64,000 bases of DNA from Leptotrichia shahii (GTDB taxonomy: Bacteria > Fusobacteriota > Fusobacteriia > Fusobacteriales > Leptotrichiaceae): assembly GCF_008327825.1 (NCBI RefSeq), contig NZ_AP019827.1, positions 1-64,000 on the forward strand. Reading direction: 5' to 3'. The position numbers and the translations under genes were made by a program. Below are positions 31,216 to 40,489 of this stretch, piece by piece. Positions within the stretch are counted from its first letter, which is position 1; each line of letters begins with the position of its first letter. Under the pieces are notes generated by a model that was not told the DNA's origin, ran no database searches, and saw nothing but the letters and a program-made list of their open reading frames with translations.

Positions 31216-31833
31216 TTATTTTTTAGTTTCAGATTTTAAATTTTTTAAAAGAAATTCTTTTAGCGTAGGAAATTTTGTTATGTATTTTAAATTTTCAATA
31301 TTAATTACTATTTTCCCTTCTTTTCTTGAAGAATTTTGATAAATAAAACTTTTTCTGCTTTCACATAATTTTTTTTGATTCAAATTTAAAATTTCTATTG
31401 TTTTCATTGCCATTTCATACTCTATTCCATTTTCATATTTTGGAATTATTTCGCCTGTACTAATACTATATTCAAAATAATCTCTAGGATTATATTCAAC
31501 TGGATTCACAAAATTATCATCCCATTTGTTCCCTTTTGTTGAACCACAAGTTTGATTTTCAAGACAACCAGTCAAAAAATTACTGTAATTATGAAACAAC
31601 TTTGGAAATTTGTCTTTAGGTTTTATATGCTCAATTTGACTTTTCTCAACAGAAATCTGTCTTTCACAATAAGGACAAAAATAATTTTCATCTATTTTCT
31701 GCTCATTTTCAAGCATATACTCTTTTAGTTTTCCCTTTATTTTAAAATCAAAATCTTTCCAGCTTTTTGGATTACTTTTCTTTTTAAATTCCGCAAAAAA
31801 TTTTGGCTCATCGTTTTTATCTATTTTCAGCAT
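31216..31833 (-). CDS. ptuB: Septu-like HNH endonuclease PtuB (TIGR02646-type)
   Basis: 205 residues. The HNH/zinc core has CPYCERQIS, then IEHIKPKDKF, LTGCLENQTCGSTKGN and FVNPVEYNP. This is the pattern of TIGR02646 proteins, which serve as the nuclease PtuB in Septu systems and in PtuAB-type retrons. The partner ATPase gene is directly upstream and overlaps it by 17 bases. RBS GGGGAG precedes the ATG inside the ptuA end. No reverse transcriptase is adjacent, so a stand-alone Septu-like system is the likely reading. Confidence 0.85.
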   Translation of the reverse strand: MLKIDKNDEPKFFAEFKKKSNPKSWKDFDFKIKGKLKEYMLENEQKIDENYFCPYCERQISVEKSQIEHIKPKDKFPKLFHNYSNFLTGCLENQTCGSTKGNKWDDNFVNPVEYNPRDYFEYSISTGEIIPKYENGIEYEMAMKTIEILNLNQKKLCESRKSFIYQNSSRKEGKIVINIENLKYITKFPTLKEFLLKNLKSETKK

Positions 31834-33079
31834 TTTTTCTCCCCTTTTTTATTTGCAAATCCATATCCACTAAAAATAAATCTCTATCGTCTTCTCCTAG
31901 AATATTTTTTATTTTACTGTATTTTCTCTCAAATTCAGAATTTTCATAATTGTCATTCCTAATCATTTCTTTTACTTGATTAAGAAGTTCATGGACACTA
32001 GGATTTCTATCTGTTTCAAGCCCCATTATATCTTCCAGAATTCTTTCCATAGTCTGTCCATACGAATCTCCAAAATTTTCTCCAGTTCTAACTTCCACGA
32101 CACCATTCTTATTTTTTACTAGCAAAATTATACTTTCTTTCTCAACGCTCCCTAAAATATGCGGAGAATGTGTTGCTAAAATTATCTGATTATTCTTCCC
32201 AATTTTTTTATAAACATCAATAATTTTTTGTTGCCATCTCGGATGTAACGACAATTCAGGCTCATCAATCATAATTATGGAATTTTCAGGCTCCAACATT
32301 TTTATCGCCAAAGTCCGTAAAAACAACTGTTTTTCCCCCGAAGAAAGTTCATTTATTCCAAATTTTTTTCCACTAGAATTAGTAAAAATCGGCATACTAT
32401 TCTCATCTTTCGATATTTCTGAAAGTTTTACATCCAACTCCAAAATTTCAAAAATTCCATTAATTTCCGCAAAAACTTTTTTTCTAACTTGTCCCATTGT
32501 CAAATCTTCCTCTTCATTCGCAACTCTTGAAATCCGAGTTGCAATATAGGACGGAATATCCTTGATTTCGTATGAATCTACAATATTAATAAAACTATAT
32601 TCTTTTTTTAAATTTGTTTGAGCTTTTTTAATTTCTTCAAAATTAATCTCAGTTGGAACATAAATTATTTTGGGAAATATTTTTAATTTTCCAAAACTTC
32701 TGCTTATTATTTTTGAATTATAATTTTGATTTTCTGTTTTATTGTGTCTGTAATCATAGTTATAAAATTTTATATTTTTCAAGCAATCTGTAAATTCAAT
32801 ATCCTTTTGTGCTTCTTTTTCAACTTCTGTCAATCCTTCACTATTCATAAGACTTTCCAAAACTTCTCTTTCATTCTCTTCATAAAATAATTCCACATTA
32901 ACAGCTTTGCTTCTAAACATTTCAAACCAATAACGAATGCTTTCCAAAACTCTAGTTTTTCCACTCCCATTAATTCCAGCCAGAACTATCAAATCCAAAA
33001 CTTTTCCTTCTGACTCAAAGTTTATATTTAAGTTTTCAAGTCCGTTGTATTCTTCTATGTGAAGATTTTTTATTTTCAT
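31817..33079 (-). CDS. ptuA: Septu-like AAA/ABC-type ATPase PtuA
   Basis: 420 residues. Walker A is LAGINGSGKTRVLES, the ABC signature is ELSSGEKQLFLRTLA, Walker B is SIIMIDEPELSLHPRWQQ, and the switch His is in ILATHSPHILGS. Size and neighbouring HNH gene fit PtuA, which in studied Septu systems forms a complex that holds and controls PtuB during phage infection. AAGGAG precedes the ATG. Its 3' end overlaps ptuB. An ordinary stand-alone AAA15-type ATPase is the alternative. Confidence 0.83.
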   Translation of the reverse strand: MKIKNLHIEEYNGLENLNINFESEGKVLDLIVLAGINGSGKTRVLESIRYWFEMFRSKAVNVELFYEENEREVLESLMNSEGLTEVEKEAQKDIEFTDCLKNIKFYNYDYRHNKTENQNYNSKIISRSFGKLKIFPKIIYVPTEINFEEIKKAQTNLKKEYSFINIVDSYEIKDIPSYIATRISRVANEEEDLTMGQVRKKVFAEINGIFEILELDVKLSEISKDENSMPIFTNSSGKKFGINELSSGEKQLFLRTLAIKMLEPENSIIMIDEPELSLHPRWQQKIIDVYKKIGKNNQIILATHSPHILGSVEKESIILLVKNKNGVVEVRTGENFGDSYGQTMERILEDIMGLETDRNPSVHELLNQVKEMIRNDNYENSEFERKYSKIKNILGEDDRDLFLVDMDLQIKKGRKNAENR

Positions 33080-33103
33080 TTGTGGTTACTCCTTTCTTAT
33101 AAT

Positions 33104-35128
33104 TTATTGAAACTTTTTTATATCTCCAAATACTTTCTTTATATTTCCAGAAAATTCTGAAATATCATCTATATAAAATATTTTAAGATTTTTAATTGCT
33201 CTAGTTACAGAAACATATAACAAATTCCTTGCTTCATTATGTTTTTTTAAATCTTTTTCTTCAATTTTCTTATTGTAATTTTTAAAAAAATCAAAAAAAA
33301 GATTTTTGTTATTTCTTCCAAAAGAATTTTCCATTATTATAACAACATTTTCAAATTCCCTACCTTTTGTTCCATGATACGTATGATAATATATTTTTTC
33401 TCCTTTTTCTTCTATTAAATATCTGTACCAATTAAAATATTGATTAATCTCAATTTTCAAAAAATTTTCAACTTCATTTATATTATTTCCATATTCATCA
33501 TCAAAAAGTTCTTGAATAATATATTTTTTTATATTTTCTAAGGATATATCTTCAATTTGAAATACATTTTTTACTATTTTTTTGTAATCTAAATCTTCAT
33601 TTCTATTATACAATTCAAATATTTTTTCTAAATAATCATTTAAAGTTTCTTTTTTGCTATTTCTAATTTCTACCATAATTTTTTTTAAAGTTCTTAATTG
33701 TTTTAAATTTTTCCCTCTGTAGACTTTACTGAAAATATCTGTTACAAAAGTTTTTTCATTTTGCAAATCATTTAAAAATTTGCTTATTCTAAAAAAGAAA
33801 CTAGGAATACTTCCTAATTTTGTCATGTCATTTGAAAATAATTCTGACGTTAATTGGTTATAATTCTTTTTATAATAGTCACTTTTATAAAAAAAATCAT
33901 AAATATCTTGAAAACCAGAATATTCTGCAATTAACTTGTTTGTTAATATAAAACAATGTAAAGGACTATCTTGTGTTATATTCCATTCTTTCTCTACTTT
34001 TTCTAAAAAGGCTTTTATTTCTTCTTCTTTTCCAGAAAAAAACTCTATTGTTCCACCGTCACTATCTTCATATATAGATTCTTGAGGAAATTCATTCTTT
34101 TTAATTTTATTTGCAACTTCAATAATTTCTTTAGCAGATCTTCTATTATATTTTTTATAGACATTATCTAAATCAGTATGCAATTCTTTTATTGATTCAC
34201 CTACTCCACTATTATAAATATTCTGTACATAATCTCCAAAATATCCGACATAAAATTTATGATTAATTTTTTTTGAATATTCATCTAATAAATTCATTAT
34301 TTTAACTACTTTTTCATCAGTATCTTGATACTCATCTATAAAAATATAAGGATATTTATCAATTATTATTTGTTTTAATAAGTCAAATTTTTTTATCATT
34401 CTATATCCGTATTCTAGTAGAGTATCATGGCTTATTTTCATTTTATGTAACACATCAAAATTAAATAAAGGCGTATACTCTATATTTTTATATTTTTTAT
34501 TTTCTATTTCTTTTAGACAATTTTCAAGTTTAGATATTTTTTTTAGTTTTTTATAAATTTCTTTAAAATTCGTAACTTTCATATCAAAAAAGATTTCATC
34601 AGAAATATTTTCTTTTTTCAATTCTTCTTCAAAATTATCTTTATTCAAAAATTGTATTTTTATATTAGTTTTCGATATGATTTCATTAATATAACTTTTT
34701 TCTTCTTTATTATACAACAAATATTTCTTATTCTTCTTCAATTTTTCATTTTCTTCTTTTATCTTCTCTTTAGTATATTCAAAATGAATTTCTACTAACT
34801 TAGATTGATAAAGTTTATTATTTATCAAACTCCAAATCCTTTCATGAATTGTTGAAACTAAAATAAGATTAGTATTTCCCAATCTTTCTTTTATTTCGTT
34901 TGTTGCAACATTCGTATAAGTTATACATATTACTTTTTTATTTTTATTCTCTAAATTTCTTCCTTCTTCTCTTATAACATATTTTAAGCATTCAATTAGA
35001 GAATAGGTTTTCCCTGCACCTGCTCCCGCATTAAAAAGAGTACTTTTATTTTTAGATATATTTTTAAATAAATTTTTTAAAATTTCTTTTTCTTTTAATA
35101 AATTTTTATCATTTATTTTTGATAACAT
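33104..35128 (-). CDS. gajB: Gabija-like UvrD/Rep-family helicase GajB
   Basis: 674 residues, SF1A helicase. Walker A is LFNAGAGAGKTYSLIE, motif Ia VICITYTNVATNEIKERL, Walker B YIFIDEYQDTDEKV and motif V/VI ...YHGTKGREFENVVI... LLYVSVTRAIKNLKIF. Its start overlaps the end of the OLD-type nuclease gene by 20 bases, the gajA-gajB arrangement. It is longer than the founding GajB of about 490 residues, so it may be a divergent subfamily. The GajA-GajB complex degrades DNA on nucleotide depletion in characterised Gabija systems. Confidence 0.8.
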   Translation of the reverse strand: MLSKINDKNLLKEKEILKNLFKNISKNKSTLFNAGAGAGKTYSLIECLKYVIREEGRNLENKNKKVICITYTNVATNEIKERLGNTNLILVSTIHERIWSLINNKLYQSKLVEIHFEYTKEKIKEENEKLKKNKKYLLYNKEEKSYINEIISKTNIKIQFLNKDNFEEELKKENISDEIFFDMKVTNFKEIYKKLKKISKLENCLKEIENKKYKNIEYTPLFNFDVLHKMKISHDTLLEYGYRMIKKFDLLKQIIIDKYPYIFIDEYQDTDEKVVKIMNLLDEYSKKINHKFYVGYFGDYVQNIYNSGVGESIKELHTDLDNVYKKYNRRSAKEIIEVANKIKKNEFPQESIYEDSDGGTIEFFSGKEEEIKAFLEKVEKEWNITQDSPLHCFILTNKLIAEYSGFQDIYDFFYKSDYYKKNYNQLTSELFSNDMTKLGSIPSFFFRISKFLNDLQNEKTFVTDIFSKVYRGKNLKQLRTLKKIMVEIRNSKKETLNDYLEKIFELYNRNEDLDYKKIVKNVFQIEDISLENIKKYIIQELFDDEYGNNINEVENFLKIEINQYFNWYRYLIEEKGEKIYYHTYHGTKGREFENVVIIMENSFGRNNKNLFFDFFKNYNKKIEEKDLKKHNEARNLLYVSVTRAIKNLKIFYIDDISEFSGNIKKVFGDIKKFQ

Positions 35129-36455
35129 TTTTTATTTCACCATTTTCTCTGAGTAATTTGTCTAATTGATCTAACCCTTTCTTTATATACTCTGGTAATT
35201 CAGGAATTTTATTATTCTTATTAGTTGTTACAATATGATAAAATAATTCGTTCGCTAATTCTGTTTTTTTGTTATTTTCTCCTATCCTAAATTGCCATTC
35301 ATAAGAATTTTTTTTATTATTTTCATAATCATTCTTGACTATTCTTGAATAAGTTCTTTGTAAAATATTCTTAAGTACTTTATTTAATATCTTATTATCA
35401 AAATTAGTTAATATAAATGCTTCTTCAAAACTTGTAGGATAATATTCATAAATTTTATTCTGGTAACATACAATTATATTTTTATTCTTTATATATTCTT
35501 CCTTAATTATATTAACAATCATTTCATTATTTTTATTAAAAAATTTTAAAGTGGTATTAGTTGATTGCATATTTTCTTCAATTTTTTCTATTTGGCTTAT
35601 ATCATTTTTTTTCTTCCCATTTTTTCCCTCTATTTTTTCTCGTTTAATATCCAAATCTGTTATTATTAAAACTGGTAATTCTATCAGTTCAAATAATTCT
35701 TTATACAAATGTCCGTATGCTCCACCTATATTAAATATTGTTATGTATTTTTGTTTTAAATATTCATTTTCATCTATATACAAAGGTAACAAATTATATT
35801 CTGTATCCCCTTCAACCAAAATAACTGCATCTGAAAAAAATAATTCCGAAACTTTAAATTTTATATGTTTTTTTATAAATTTTAAATGCTCCATTTTTTT
35901 ATTCGTTTCTAAATTCTTCGGAGTTATTTTTTCATCTTTTAAAATAATTATTCTCGACTCATTGTTTTTAAAAGTTACATAGTTTATATTATCAAATCCA
36001 TCTCCACTATGAATTTTACTATTCAAAATATGTGATGAATGTGTTGATATAACTAATTGACTGTTAAGATTTTTTTTATCTTCTTTTGACAATAACTTAT
36101 TTATCGCATCATTTATATATTTTATGAATAATTCTTGCATTTGTGGATGCATATACGTTTCAGGTTCTTCAATACATATTAAATTAATTTTACTATTTGA
36201 CATATCCCCTTCATATTTATCAATGTAATCAATTAAATTAGCAATAATCATAACAAGATTTGTATATCCAAGTCCAAATTGATTTTCTGGAATAGGAATT
36301 TCTTTATCAAGATATTGATAATTAACTAAATCGTTTAATGCTTTATCTAAAGACAAATCAGAATTCAAAAAAATCTTTAAATTATCTTGAGAAATTACAC
36401 TTGATAATGTATCATTAATATTATTTGTTTGTCCGATAGTAATAGTTTCGGTCAA
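35109..36455 (-). CDS. gajA: Gabija-like OLD nuclease GajA, C-terminal part (separated by a -1 frameshift)
   Basis: This frame encodes the rest of the ATPase and the Toprim nuclease. The Walker B/ABC half is LICIEEPETYMHPQMQELF and the switch His is in VISTHSSHIL. The Toprim Glu motif is AVILVEGDTEYNLLPLY and its Asp motif VLIITDLDI. The frame stays open upstream of 36455 to a TAG at 36575-36577, encoding FKNAFNKIISYRFNEKH, which continues smoothly from the N-terminal part. There is no credible start codon or RBS of its own. The joined protein would be about 697 residues. Confidence 0.8.
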   Translation of the reverse strand: MTETITIGQTNNINDTLSSVISQDNLKIFLNSDLSLDKALNDLVNYQYLDKEIPIPENQFGLGYTNLVMIIANLIDYIDKYEGDMSNSKINLICIEEPETYMHPQMQELFIKYINDAINKLLSKEDKKNLNSQLVISTHSSHILNSKIHSGDGFDNINYVTFKNNESRIIILKDEKITPKNLETNKKMEHLKFIKKHIKFKVSELFFSDAVILVEGDTEYNLLPLYIDENEYLKQKYITIFNIGGAYGHLYKELFELIELPVLIITDLDIKREKIEGKNGKKKNDISQIEKIEENMQSTNTTLKFFNKNNEMIVNIIKEEYIKNKNIIVCYQNKIYEYYPTSFEEAFILTNFDNKILNKVLKNILQRTYSRIVKNDYENNKKNSYEWQFRIGENNKKTELANELFYHIVTTNKNNKIPELPEYIKKGLDQLDKLLRENGEIKNVIKNK

Positions 36456-36550
36456 ATCTTTATTTAACTCATCAAATTTACTTTCTACTTTTTCTTTGTT
36501 TGGAAAATACTTACTTGATTTAGGATGTTTTTCATTAAAACGATAGCTAA

Positions 36551-37201
36551 TTATTTTATTAAATGCATTTTTAAACTATTCTTATCCGAAACATTATTTG
36601 CTTTAATAGAAACAACATTTATTAATTTATCCAATTTAAAATTTTCTATTTCAATATCATCATTTCTATAAAATTTTGTTTTGTACCCTATTTTATTCAT
36701 TTGTTCTATAATTTTTAAAAATTTTTCTGTTCCCGATATTTTTTTATTTATTATTTTATCAAATTCACCTAAAAATTCTTGTGATTCTTCCAAAACAATT
36801 TTAATTTTTAATTCTATTTCAGTATCATCTAAGTCTTCTAAAGTCATCAATGGAACTAAATTTGTTATATCATCATTTTTGTTTTTTTCCAAATTTATTA
36901 TTAATTTAAACTCTATTTCAGGAAATTGTTTGTTTGTATTCTCATTTTCATAACCTTCAAATAATTTTTTTAAATAAAAAAAATTAAAATCTGAACCTGT
37001 AAATTTACCATTTACTAAAGTATCTAATGCTTCTATTATTGTTGTTTTTCCTGAATTATTTTTTCCGATAATTAGAGTTGTATTTTGTGCTACATTAATT
37101 TCAGTTCCTTCAGGAGTATCTTTAGAATTTATGAACTCAACGATATTATTTTTATCTCCAAATTTTCTAAAATTTTTTATTTCCAAACTTTTTAAGTACA
37201 T
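36551..37201 (-). CDS. gajA: Gabija-like OLD nuclease GajA, N-terminal part
   Basis: About 216 residues: N-terminal ATPase lobe of an OLD-family protein, MYLKSLEIKNFRKFG, then Walker A TTLIIGKNNSGKTTIIEAL. It stops just after the slippery heptamer, before the Walker B half. ATG 37201 is preceded by GGAGG at 5 bases; the ATG at 37213 overlaps that RBS and was rejected. It lies 55 bases after the end of the type IIG gene. Alone it would lack both Walker B and the Toprim nuclease and is unlikely to work. Confidence 0.8.
   Translation of the reverse strand: MYLKSLEIKNFRKFGDKNNIVEFINSKDTPEGTEINVAQNTTLIIGKNNSGKTTIIEALDTLVNGKFTGSDFNFFYLKKLFEGYENENTNKQFPEIEFKLIINLEKNKNDDITNLVPLMTLEDLDDTEIELKIKIVLEESQEFLGEFDKIINKKISGTEKFLKIIEQMNKIGYKTKFYRNDDIEIENFKLDKLINVVSIKANNVSDKNSLKMHLIK
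36568..36575 (-). other. -1 slippery heptamer / A-tract at the gajA frame junction
   Basis: On the minus strand the codons read AGT TTA AAA ATG, i.e. heptamer T TTA AAA (36569-36575) of the X XXY YYZ class. A -1 slip here gives Ser-Leu-Lys-Asn-Ala-Phe and enters the C-terminal frame exactly; without it translation stops at TAA (36551-36553) six codons on. One extra A in the A5 run would give the same protein, so a one-base deletion or sequencing error is the alternative. Confidence 0.7.
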
Positions 37202-37267
37202 ATTTTCCTCCATTTATTTTTCTTTTTGAAAAAATTATAATTTTAATATCTTTCAAAATTAAAAAAT

Positions 37268-40200
37268 TTAATTCTCCTCAATAATTCTAATCTCCTCCTC
37301 ACTCAACCCATACAGCTCATAAACCATCCCATCAATCTCTTTATCCGTTTTTGTAATTTCATTGTTTAATGTTTCTGCTTTTGATTTTTCTGCAATGAAA
37401 TAATCCTCCCAATCAGCTTTTTGCGAAAGGCTTAATTTCACTTTTACTTTTGATAACTCTTTTATAAATTCATCAAAATTCAATAAATACCAATTTTGTA
37501 ATTTAGTAGAAATTTTTTCTAAACCAAGTTCTCTCATAATCATTCGTTGGAATTTTTGTGAAATTTCTTGAAGGTTTTTGTTTAAAAATAACATTTTATC
37601 AGCTTTTTCGATAAATGGTTCTTGTTTTTGTAATGAAATTTCTTTTATTGGAAATTTTCCCACTCCATTTGAAAAATATTCATAAACTCCACTTCCTGTT
37701 TGTTTTCCAATAGAACTGTAACGAAATTTAAATAATTTTGAATTTAATATTGTTAATAAATATTTAAGTTTAATTTTTTCATTTGTATCAAAAATAACTG
37801 TCGTATTTGTTAATCCGATATATTCTTTTGTATCATCATAACAAAATTCATTAGTTGTACTTCTATAAGAACACCATATTTTATTTAAATGATAATATTC
37901 TTTGTGCATCGGTCTTGAATATCTCCACCAAATTCTACCCTCATTTTTAACTGTTGCTCTGTCATTTAATTTTTCTCTATTTTTTTCTAAATATTCTTTT
38001 ATTTCTATAGGTAAATCTTCAAAATTTTCTATATTTTCAAAATATAGTAATTTTTTTTGACTGTTTTTTATTGTATATTTACTTATTGCTTCTCCACTAA
38101 TGTGATTTTTCATAAACTCATTTGGGAAATTTAAGTTATTACTTCCAAATAAAAATATATCATTTGCTGCTGTTTCCATTCCCTTTCCTATTATTACTAA
38201 ATCTTGTAATTTTGGATTATTTTCATCTATTTTGGTATTTAATTTTTGTATTTGTTTATCAACTATTGCAAATACATCATCTTTTTTTAATTCAATTTCA
38301 TATTCTTTATTTCCATTCAAATATTTTAAAATTTCATCATTACTGTAATTTTTTTCTTTTAAATTTATTCCTTTAACTTTTCTATTTTCTTTACCAAACA
38401 TCACTATACAAGATGTTATAGAAGCCTCTTCAAAAATCATATATTTTTCAAAATTTATTATTTTTTCTAACCTTCTCTTTTCAACAATATAATTTCTTAA
38501 TTTTTGAGCTTTATCTGAAAATAAAAAAGCATTTGAGATTATAAAGCCTACTTCTCCTTTTGATATTTTCAATGCCTTATAAATAAAGTAAAATAATATA
38601 TCACTTTTATCTTGCCATATTTCTGAATATTTATCCATTAAATAACTTACTATTGGTGATTTCGCTCCAAATGTTTGAACATTGAAATACGGCGGATTCC
38701 CTACCACAACATCAAATCCACCATTTTTAAACACTTGCGGAAACTCTTTTTCCCAATCAAATGCCAATTCCCCAGCAATTTCAGCATCATCAATCAACGA
38801 ATTTCCACATTTTATATTATTTTCAAGTGTAGCCAATGTTTTATTTTTATCAGCAGTTTTTAGCCACAATGATAATTTCGTGATTTCTACACTTTCCTTA
38901 TTCAAATCCACTCCAAATATATTATTTTGCAAGATTTCCTTTGTTGTATCTGAAAACAAATCTTTTATTCCAGTTAAATCAAAAATTTTATCGTTTAAGT
39001 AATTGTTATAATTTAATAAATATTCAAAGGCTGTGATTAGGAATGCTCCGCTTCCACAAGCTGGATCTACGATTTTTATATTTTTTACAGCCTCTCTGTA
39101 TTTTGTCCAAAATTCTATATGCTTTTTTAAATTTTCACTATAAATTCTTTTTTCATAAGTTCTTTTTTCATTTTTTTTACGAGTATACTCTATTTCAAAA
39201 TCTTTTTCTGTAAGTTCAGGAAGTTTATCTTCGCCTAGCTCTTTTCGTTTGTCGTCAAGCCAGTTTTTTATCGAATTTTCTACAATGTATTTGGTTATAT
39301 ATTTTGGTGTGTAAAAAATTCCGTCTTTTTTACGTTTCCCTTTTTTCTTGTCAAATTCTTCCCCATTTAATTCTTTTTTCAAATCCTCTATATCGCTTAT
39401 AGATTGCTCAAAAATATGCCCTAATATATTTTCATTCAGTTCAGAGTCAAAATCATATTCAGATATTTTTTTCATTTCTTCAAAAACTTCATTATCCACA
39501 TAAAGACTCTCTAAAATATCGTCATTTTTAAATAAACCTCCATTAAAATGAGAAATATTTTTTCTCGGATTTCCTAAATTTATCCAATTGCAAAGCATTT
39601 TAAAAACTTCAAAAACATCTCCAAAGTTTTTACCTTTTTCCAAAGTTTTATGAAAAATATTATTTGGCAATAATCCTTTGTCTTCACAAAAGCAGATAAA
39701 CAGGAATCTATCCAATAATTTTTGAACTTTTTCAATTATCGTATTTTCATTTACTGTGGGATTATTTTTCCGCATATTTTCAAAGATATGTAATCTAATA
39801 GCTTTATATTCGTTATAAAATTTCTTCTCAATTTCAGATTGATTTTTCTGATATTCTTCAGAAAGTTCTATTGTTTTTGCCTTTTTCTTTTCAGTTCCTA
39901 CCAAAGCGTAAAATGAAAGAATGTAAATAAATTTCTTAAATTCTAAATCATCTTTTAATTTTTCAAGAAAAAACACTTGATATTCTGTCATATCATTTGA
40001 CCTGTAAAGCCTTATTTCCTTATAGTTTGAAACTATAACCCATTGACAGTTCTTTCCATATTTTGGAGCATAGTTAAAAGCCTGTTCTACAGGCGTTCTT
40101 GTATCACCGGTTCTTTTCTGCCTTACATCTAGCGAAACTTTTGCACCTTTCAGCTCAATTACAGCCCTGACATCTTTTTTTCCATCTGCATCAAAAAATC

Positions 40201-40489
40201 CCAAAACTCCATCAGCCTTCTGCCCATCTAACTTTGTTTTAGTTTCTCTTTCTAAATTCCATTCATTTTTTCCATCCGATTTATTCACAGCTCTCAATAC
40301 AGTTGTAAAAATATCGTACAAAAATTCTCCTTGAAATTCTTCTTCTTTCGATTTATCCAAAACACCATTTTCAAGATTATTTATCCATTTATTTAGTGCC
40401 TTTCTTCTTTCAGAAAACTTATGTTTACTTAAATCGACTTCTTCTTCAGCTTTTTTAGCTAGTATTTTCTGATTAAATAAGTTATTCAT
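37268..40489 (-). CDS. Type IIG/Eco57I-like restriction-modification protein
   Basis: 1073 residues combining nuclease, methyltransferase and recognition regions. The N-terminal PD-(D/E)XK-like segment is at about residues 85-130 (ADGKKDVRAVIELKGAKV). SAM-binding motif I is IVDPACGSGAFLITAF and motif IV is VVGNPPYFNVQ at about residue 597, an N6-adenine methylase type. The C-terminal ~400 residues resemble a TaqI-type target-recognition domain (YIGLTNTTVIF, KFRYSSIGKQTGSGVYEYFS). Single-chain enzymes of this type both cut and methylate. A good promoter lies upstream; it is the first gene of the defence run. Confidence 0.9.
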   Translation of the reverse strand: MNNLFNQKILAKKAEEEVDLSKHKFSERRKALNKWINNLENGVLDKSKEEEFQGEFLYDIFTTVLRAVNKSDGKNEWNLERETKTKLDGQKADGVLGFFDADGKKDVRAVIELKGAKVSLDVRQKRTGDTRTPVEQAFNYAPKYGKNCQWVIVSNYKEIRLYRSNDMTEYQVFFLEKLKDDLEFKKFIYILSFYALVGTEKKKAKTIELSEEYQKNQSEIEKKFYNEYKAIRLHIFENMRKNNPTVNENTIIEKVQKLLDRFLFICFCEDKGLLPNNIFHKTLEKGKNFGDVFEVFKMLCNWINLGNPRKNISHFNGGLFKNDDILESLYVDNEVFEEMKKISEYDFDSELNENILGHIFEQSISDIEDLKKELNGEEFDKKKGKRKKDGIFYTPKYITKYIVENSIKNWLDDKRKELGEDKLPELTEKDFEIEYTRKKNEKRTYEKRIYSENLKKHIEFWTKYREAVKNIKIVDPACGSGAFLITAFEYLLNYNNYLNDKIFDLTGIKDLFSDTTKEILQNNIFGVDLNKESVEITKLSLWLKTADKNKTLATLENNIKCGNSLIDDAEIAGELAFDWEKEFPQVFKNGGFDVVVGNPPYFNVQTFGAKSPIVSYLMDKYSEIWQDKSDILFYFIYKALKISKGEVGFIISNAFLFSDKAQKLRNYIVEKRRLEKIINFEKYMIFEEASITSCIVMFGKENRKVKGINLKEKNYSNDEILKYLNGNKEYEIELKKDDVFAIVDKQIQKLNTKIDENNPKLQDLVIIGKGMETAANDIFLFGSNNLNFPNEFMKNHISGEAISKYTIKNSQKKLLYFENIENFEDLPIEIKEYLEKNREKLNDRATVKNEGRIWWRYSRPMHKEYYHLNKIWCSYRSTTNEFCYDDTKEYIGLTNTTVIFDTNEKIKLKYLLTILNSKLFKFRYSSIGKQTGSGVYEYFSNGVGKFPIKEISLQKQEPFIEKADKMLFLNKNLQEISQKFQRMIMRELGLEKISTKLQNWYLLNFDEFIKELSKVKVKLSLSQKADWEDYFIAEKSKAETLNNEITKTDKEIDGMVYELYGLSEEEIRIIEEN

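Follow-up and report, generated by a model that had tools for sequence, protein, structure and literature searches.

A single-base frameshift in the gajA gene of a Leptotrichia shahii Gabija operon is best explained by a lost A, real or introduced by assembly

The genome of Leptotrichia shahii (~2.16 Mb) carries, near the start of contig NZ_AP019827.1, a minus-strand defence island composed of a Type IIG restriction-modification gene, gajA, gajB and the Septu pair ptuA/ptuB. The island spans positions 31216-40489 of the window, by which we mean the whole stretch of 64,000 nucleotides analysed here (GC 30%), and its features are as follows.

37268..40489, minus strand: Type IIG restriction enzyme-methyltransferase, intact (PADLOC REase_MTase_IIG, E 4e-147; Pfam Eco57I)
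36551..37213, minus strand: gajA 5' ORF, 220 aa, N-terminal ATPase part with the Walker A motif GKNNSGKTT (PADLOC GajA PDLC00065 positions 1-208, E 9.6e-42; Pfam AAA_15 positions 1-175)
36551..36575, minus strand: frame-overlap zone of 25 nt in which both gajA frames are open, with T TTA AAA at its start and an A5 run
35109..36575, minus strand: gajA 3' open frame, 488 codons, with the remaining ATPase domain, Walker B and an OLD-like TOPRIM (PADLOC GajA PDLC00065 positions 214-665, E 2.9e-136; Pfam OLD-like_TOPRIM E 3.5e-17)
33104..35128, minus strand: gajB, UvrD-like helicase, intact, 674 aa (PADLOC GajB PDLC00128, E 4e-228)
31817..33079, minus strand: ptuA of the Septu system (PADLOC PtuA PDLC00289, E 7.6e-179)
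31216..31833, minus strand: ptuB of the Septu system (PADLOC PtuB PDLC00332, E 2e-55)

Gabija systems are recognised by an ABC-type ATPase and TOPRIM protein, GajA, adjoining the UvrD-like helicase GajB, and here the two models are matched consecutively and near full length, with the start of gajB overlapping the end of gajA. Once the two gajA frames are joined, the gene order, the domains and the near full model coverage are those of known Gabija systems (PDLC00065/PDLC00128); the one difference is that gajA, normally a single unbroken frame, carries a one-base frameshift at 36551-36575 in the present assembly. The operon itself is therefore real, an ordinary gajA-gajB Gabija of known kind. 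Its gajA has no close copy among the 12 other genomes of the genus, and a wider search covering those genomes, 98 genomes of the phylum, GTDB species contigs, viral contigs, plasmids and phages returned nothing above ~51% identity. In the syntenic region of the congener G001, restriction-modification sequence adjoins ptuA and Gabija is absent, while the Septu and restriction-modification parts are 92-96% identical to those of the window where best aligned. Gabija thus appears, from this arrangement, to have been recently inserted here or lost elsewhere.

In the frame of the 5' ORF, the minus-strand sequence around the break is GAT AAG AAT AGT TTA AAA ATG CAT TTA ATA AAA TAA. The -1 frame has a TAG directly before the TTT and is then open to the end of gajA, so that the two frames overlap by only 25 nt and the change of frame must fall within this zone, which contains T3, A5, T3 and A4. 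Either a -1 slip on T TTA AAA or one A added to the A5 run yields the identical protein, ...NSLKNAFNKII..., and the protein sequence alone cannot tell one from the other. The sequence-only reading of this DNA had placed the change of frame at T TTA AAA and described the halves as joining exactly to the residue, which both the frames and the translation confirm: across the SLK|NAF junction no residue is gained or lost. Its product of ~697 residues corresponds to the count from the second ATG, the first ATG giving 701. In terms of domains, the Pfam matches show that the cut divides the ATPase domain, Walker A lying on one side and Walker B on the other, with the 3' half resuming AAA_15 at positions 232-373 before the OLD-like TOPRIM domain.

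Searching with the joined GajA protein (tblastn) in a species-level contig collection, we found 14 relatives from other genera at 34-48% identity, and all 14 read through the site in one frame; 12 are near full length, and the remaining two, L011 and L015, span the site although their contigs end within the gene. In the same phylum, three homologues at a greater distance (two from the same family) are likewise in a single frame at this position. Across the junction the closest relatives align without gaps (L002, for instance, has CLSDAFNKIIQYRY and L007 SLTKAFNKIIKYRY), and the joined product keeps exactly their length. TTTAAAA is absent from the junction in all the homologues compared (the 14 and the three), where codons such as TTA TCA GAG or TTA ACA GAA are found instead. 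The sequence-only reading had pointed to relatives' gajA as the place to look for the same heptamer, and had named a lone broken strain among intact relatives as the contrary outcome; the site is not conserved, and the genome of the window is indeed the sole exception with a broken gajA frame, at species distance.

The most far-reaching proposal for this break was programmed -1 frameshifting on T TTA AAA, whereby one gene would provide a short ATPase fragment as well as full-length GajA. Like the sites of bacterial dnaX and of IS3-family transposases, the gajA site has an X XXY YYZ heptamer in the right phase, and the junction is exact to the residue; moreover, T TTA AAA is a Y_YY.A_AA.R motif, a class described as shift-prone in Escherichia coli (PMC4066793). 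Unlike those systems, it has neither a stem-loop or pseudoknot, nor an upstream SD-like element, nor conservation. The 34-91 nt that follow the site fold no better than their shuffles (z +0.57 to +1.28), and the 25 nt upstream form with the anti-SD a duplex of -3.3 kcal/mol, which 39% of random 25-mers from the window equal or better. Heptamers deprived of stimulators are weak in E. coli, shifting at most at about ten times a background of 0.055% (PMC4066793), and a programmed frameshift is called in the GeneTack survey only where the site is conserved (PMC3711429), whereas this one is missing from every relative compared. The heptamer is also expected by chance. In 153 genes from 264 kb of the genome (188 kb of coding sequence, 62,183 codons), there are 1011 in-phase X XXY YYZ heptamers, 106 of them TTTAAAA; the two halves of gajA hold 12 and 13 (about 25 in total, seven being TTTAAAA) and gajB another 25. 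Simulated one-base deletions leave an in-phase heptamer in the overlap zone in 24% of cases at random positions and in ~27% when placed in A or T runs at least four bases long (overall range 24-28%), TTTAAAN being left in 5% and 7%, respectively. The heptamer at the gajA break is thus no more than chance in a genome of 30% GC, and the claimed recoding signal is not supported as a real feature. Judged by their titles, none of the 17 papers that mention both Gabija and frameshifting describes recoding. A frameshift signal newly arisen in this lineage is conceivable, the nearest relative being only about 50% identical, but that T TTA AAA is kept in this one lineage as a working -1 site, metering full-length GajA against the ATPase fragment, is most improbable, as is programmed frameshifting at this site altogether. 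If true, it would be, to our knowledge, the first recoding-controlled Gabija nuclease, and would add a layer of translational control to a common anti-phage system.

Phase variation, which the sequence-only reading had also put forward, would mean that the population goes back and forth between A5, with Gabija off, and A6, with Gabija on. One added A does restore the frame exactly, and a second defence gene, AbiH-like, is likewise broken at A runs; that gene, however, has two breaks, which a single slip would not reverse. The tract is short and nothing special: the 188 kb of coding sequence contain 510 runs of exactly A6, and the mark used in the GeneTack survey was a poly-A/T run of at least 7 nt (PMC3711429). 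The idea is accordingly weak and we regard it as improbable, if a little less so than programmed frameshifting. The poorest candidate, in our estimate, is a split gene, with GajA made as two separate polypeptides, the second begun at an internal codon. In its favour, each half is a long open frame and gajB comes directly after them, but the cut separates Walker A from Walker B within one domain, none of the relatives compared shows a split, and the 3' frame lacks an ATG close to where it opens, the first start codon that it could use being a TTG at 36455, 98 nt past the stop. Transcriptional slippage was also considered and is unlikely on general grounds, A5 being short.

What fits the evidence best is the mutated A6 already listed among the possibilities in the sequence-only reading: the single-base frameshift in gajA is very probably the loss of one A from an A6 run, either by a recent spontaneous deletion in the strain or by an error of assembly. 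Assembly error, which had been named there only as an objection, becomes the twin explanation of the step from A6 to A5. T TTA AAA would then be the remnant, in an AT-rich genome, of an A6 run that followed TTT and was shortened by one base in this phase. Traces of full-length product may leak from it, but it would not be an evolved recoding signal. The GeneTack survey of 1106 genomes treated non-clustered, BLASTp-validated breaks as sequencing errors or recent indels (PMC3711429), and the gajA break resembles such singletons in being confined to one genome, with uninterrupted homologues, a homopolymer site and no conserved signal. It differs from them in sitting on a canonical slippery heptamer, of a kind common in AT-rich genomes. 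Two observations count against the lost A: apart from this break gajA is undamaged, and so is gajB, as would be the case for a gene that is still used, and the heptamer is of the class that is shift-prone in E. coli (PMC4066793).

Between the two forms of the loss the balance is roughly even. We give a real mutation about half of our confidence and an assembly error a smaller though still substantial part. Compared with related genomes, about 70 kb of conserved coding sequence (~36 kb from the window and ~33 kb from three stretches elsewhere) is free of isolated net frame breaks, and for this reason an error is no more likely than a genuine mutation, which is slightly favoured. The genome was sampled as 20 spaced stretches of 20 kb, and the other isolated broken gene in this sample is the AbiH-like one, also an accessory defence gene. 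For these two genes, a real loss of dispensable defence functions fits about as well as residual errors; in Streptococcus thermophilus, frameshifted and inactive restriction-modification genes are common (PMC11514479).

Other frame breaks in the assembly speak for the lost A as well. The AbiH-like abortive-infection gene lies at C1 about 1,016,855-1,018,689 (L025:16855-18689) and is read in three frames, with breaks at an A6 and an A7 run. At C1 1,810,700-1,815,000 (L029:10700-15000) there is a dense patch of about 40 frame-breaking differences that are almost purely deletions. An acyl-ACP-synthetase-like gene in this patch, which is one open frame of 831-844 aa in 12 of 12 congeners, falls into several frames here, with about 20 frame-breaking indels that are deletions almost without exception. 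The HlyD-like gene beside it, open in nine congeners at 416-429 aa, has in a 1.95-kb alignment to G012 (89% identity) 20 frame-breaking deletions, some of them outside the coding sequence, and no insertion. Such a bias towards deletions, with residues otherwise conserved, would be typical of unpolished reads, and suggests that the assembly is unpolished in this patch.

As written, the assembled allele should be inactive, since its product ends at residue 220, short of Walker B and the nuclease; in the 4:4 Gabija complex the tetrameric core consists of GajA, whose ATPase domain provides oligomerisation interfaces (PMC10781630). Gabija would therefore be off in this strain, and one A gained would restore gajA; if the assembly is wrong, the system would be intact. 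Two warnings follow for the reading of such breaks: slippery heptamers at gene breaks mean little near 30% GC, and deletion-rich patches, of which this assembly has one or more, mimic recoding or pseudogenes.

The candidates for frame breaks returned by a codon-score scan proved, on inspection of their starts, to be mostly normal operon junctions, and two apparent breaks in L094 were antisense or intergenic artefacts. On the minus strand at C1 about 1,504,000-1,508,800 (L093:3991-8831), near a GGAAGGGAG stretch, a frame of 1549 codons is followed by one of 68 codons with a 16-nt overlap and a good coding score, and this locus is a possible third isolated frame break.
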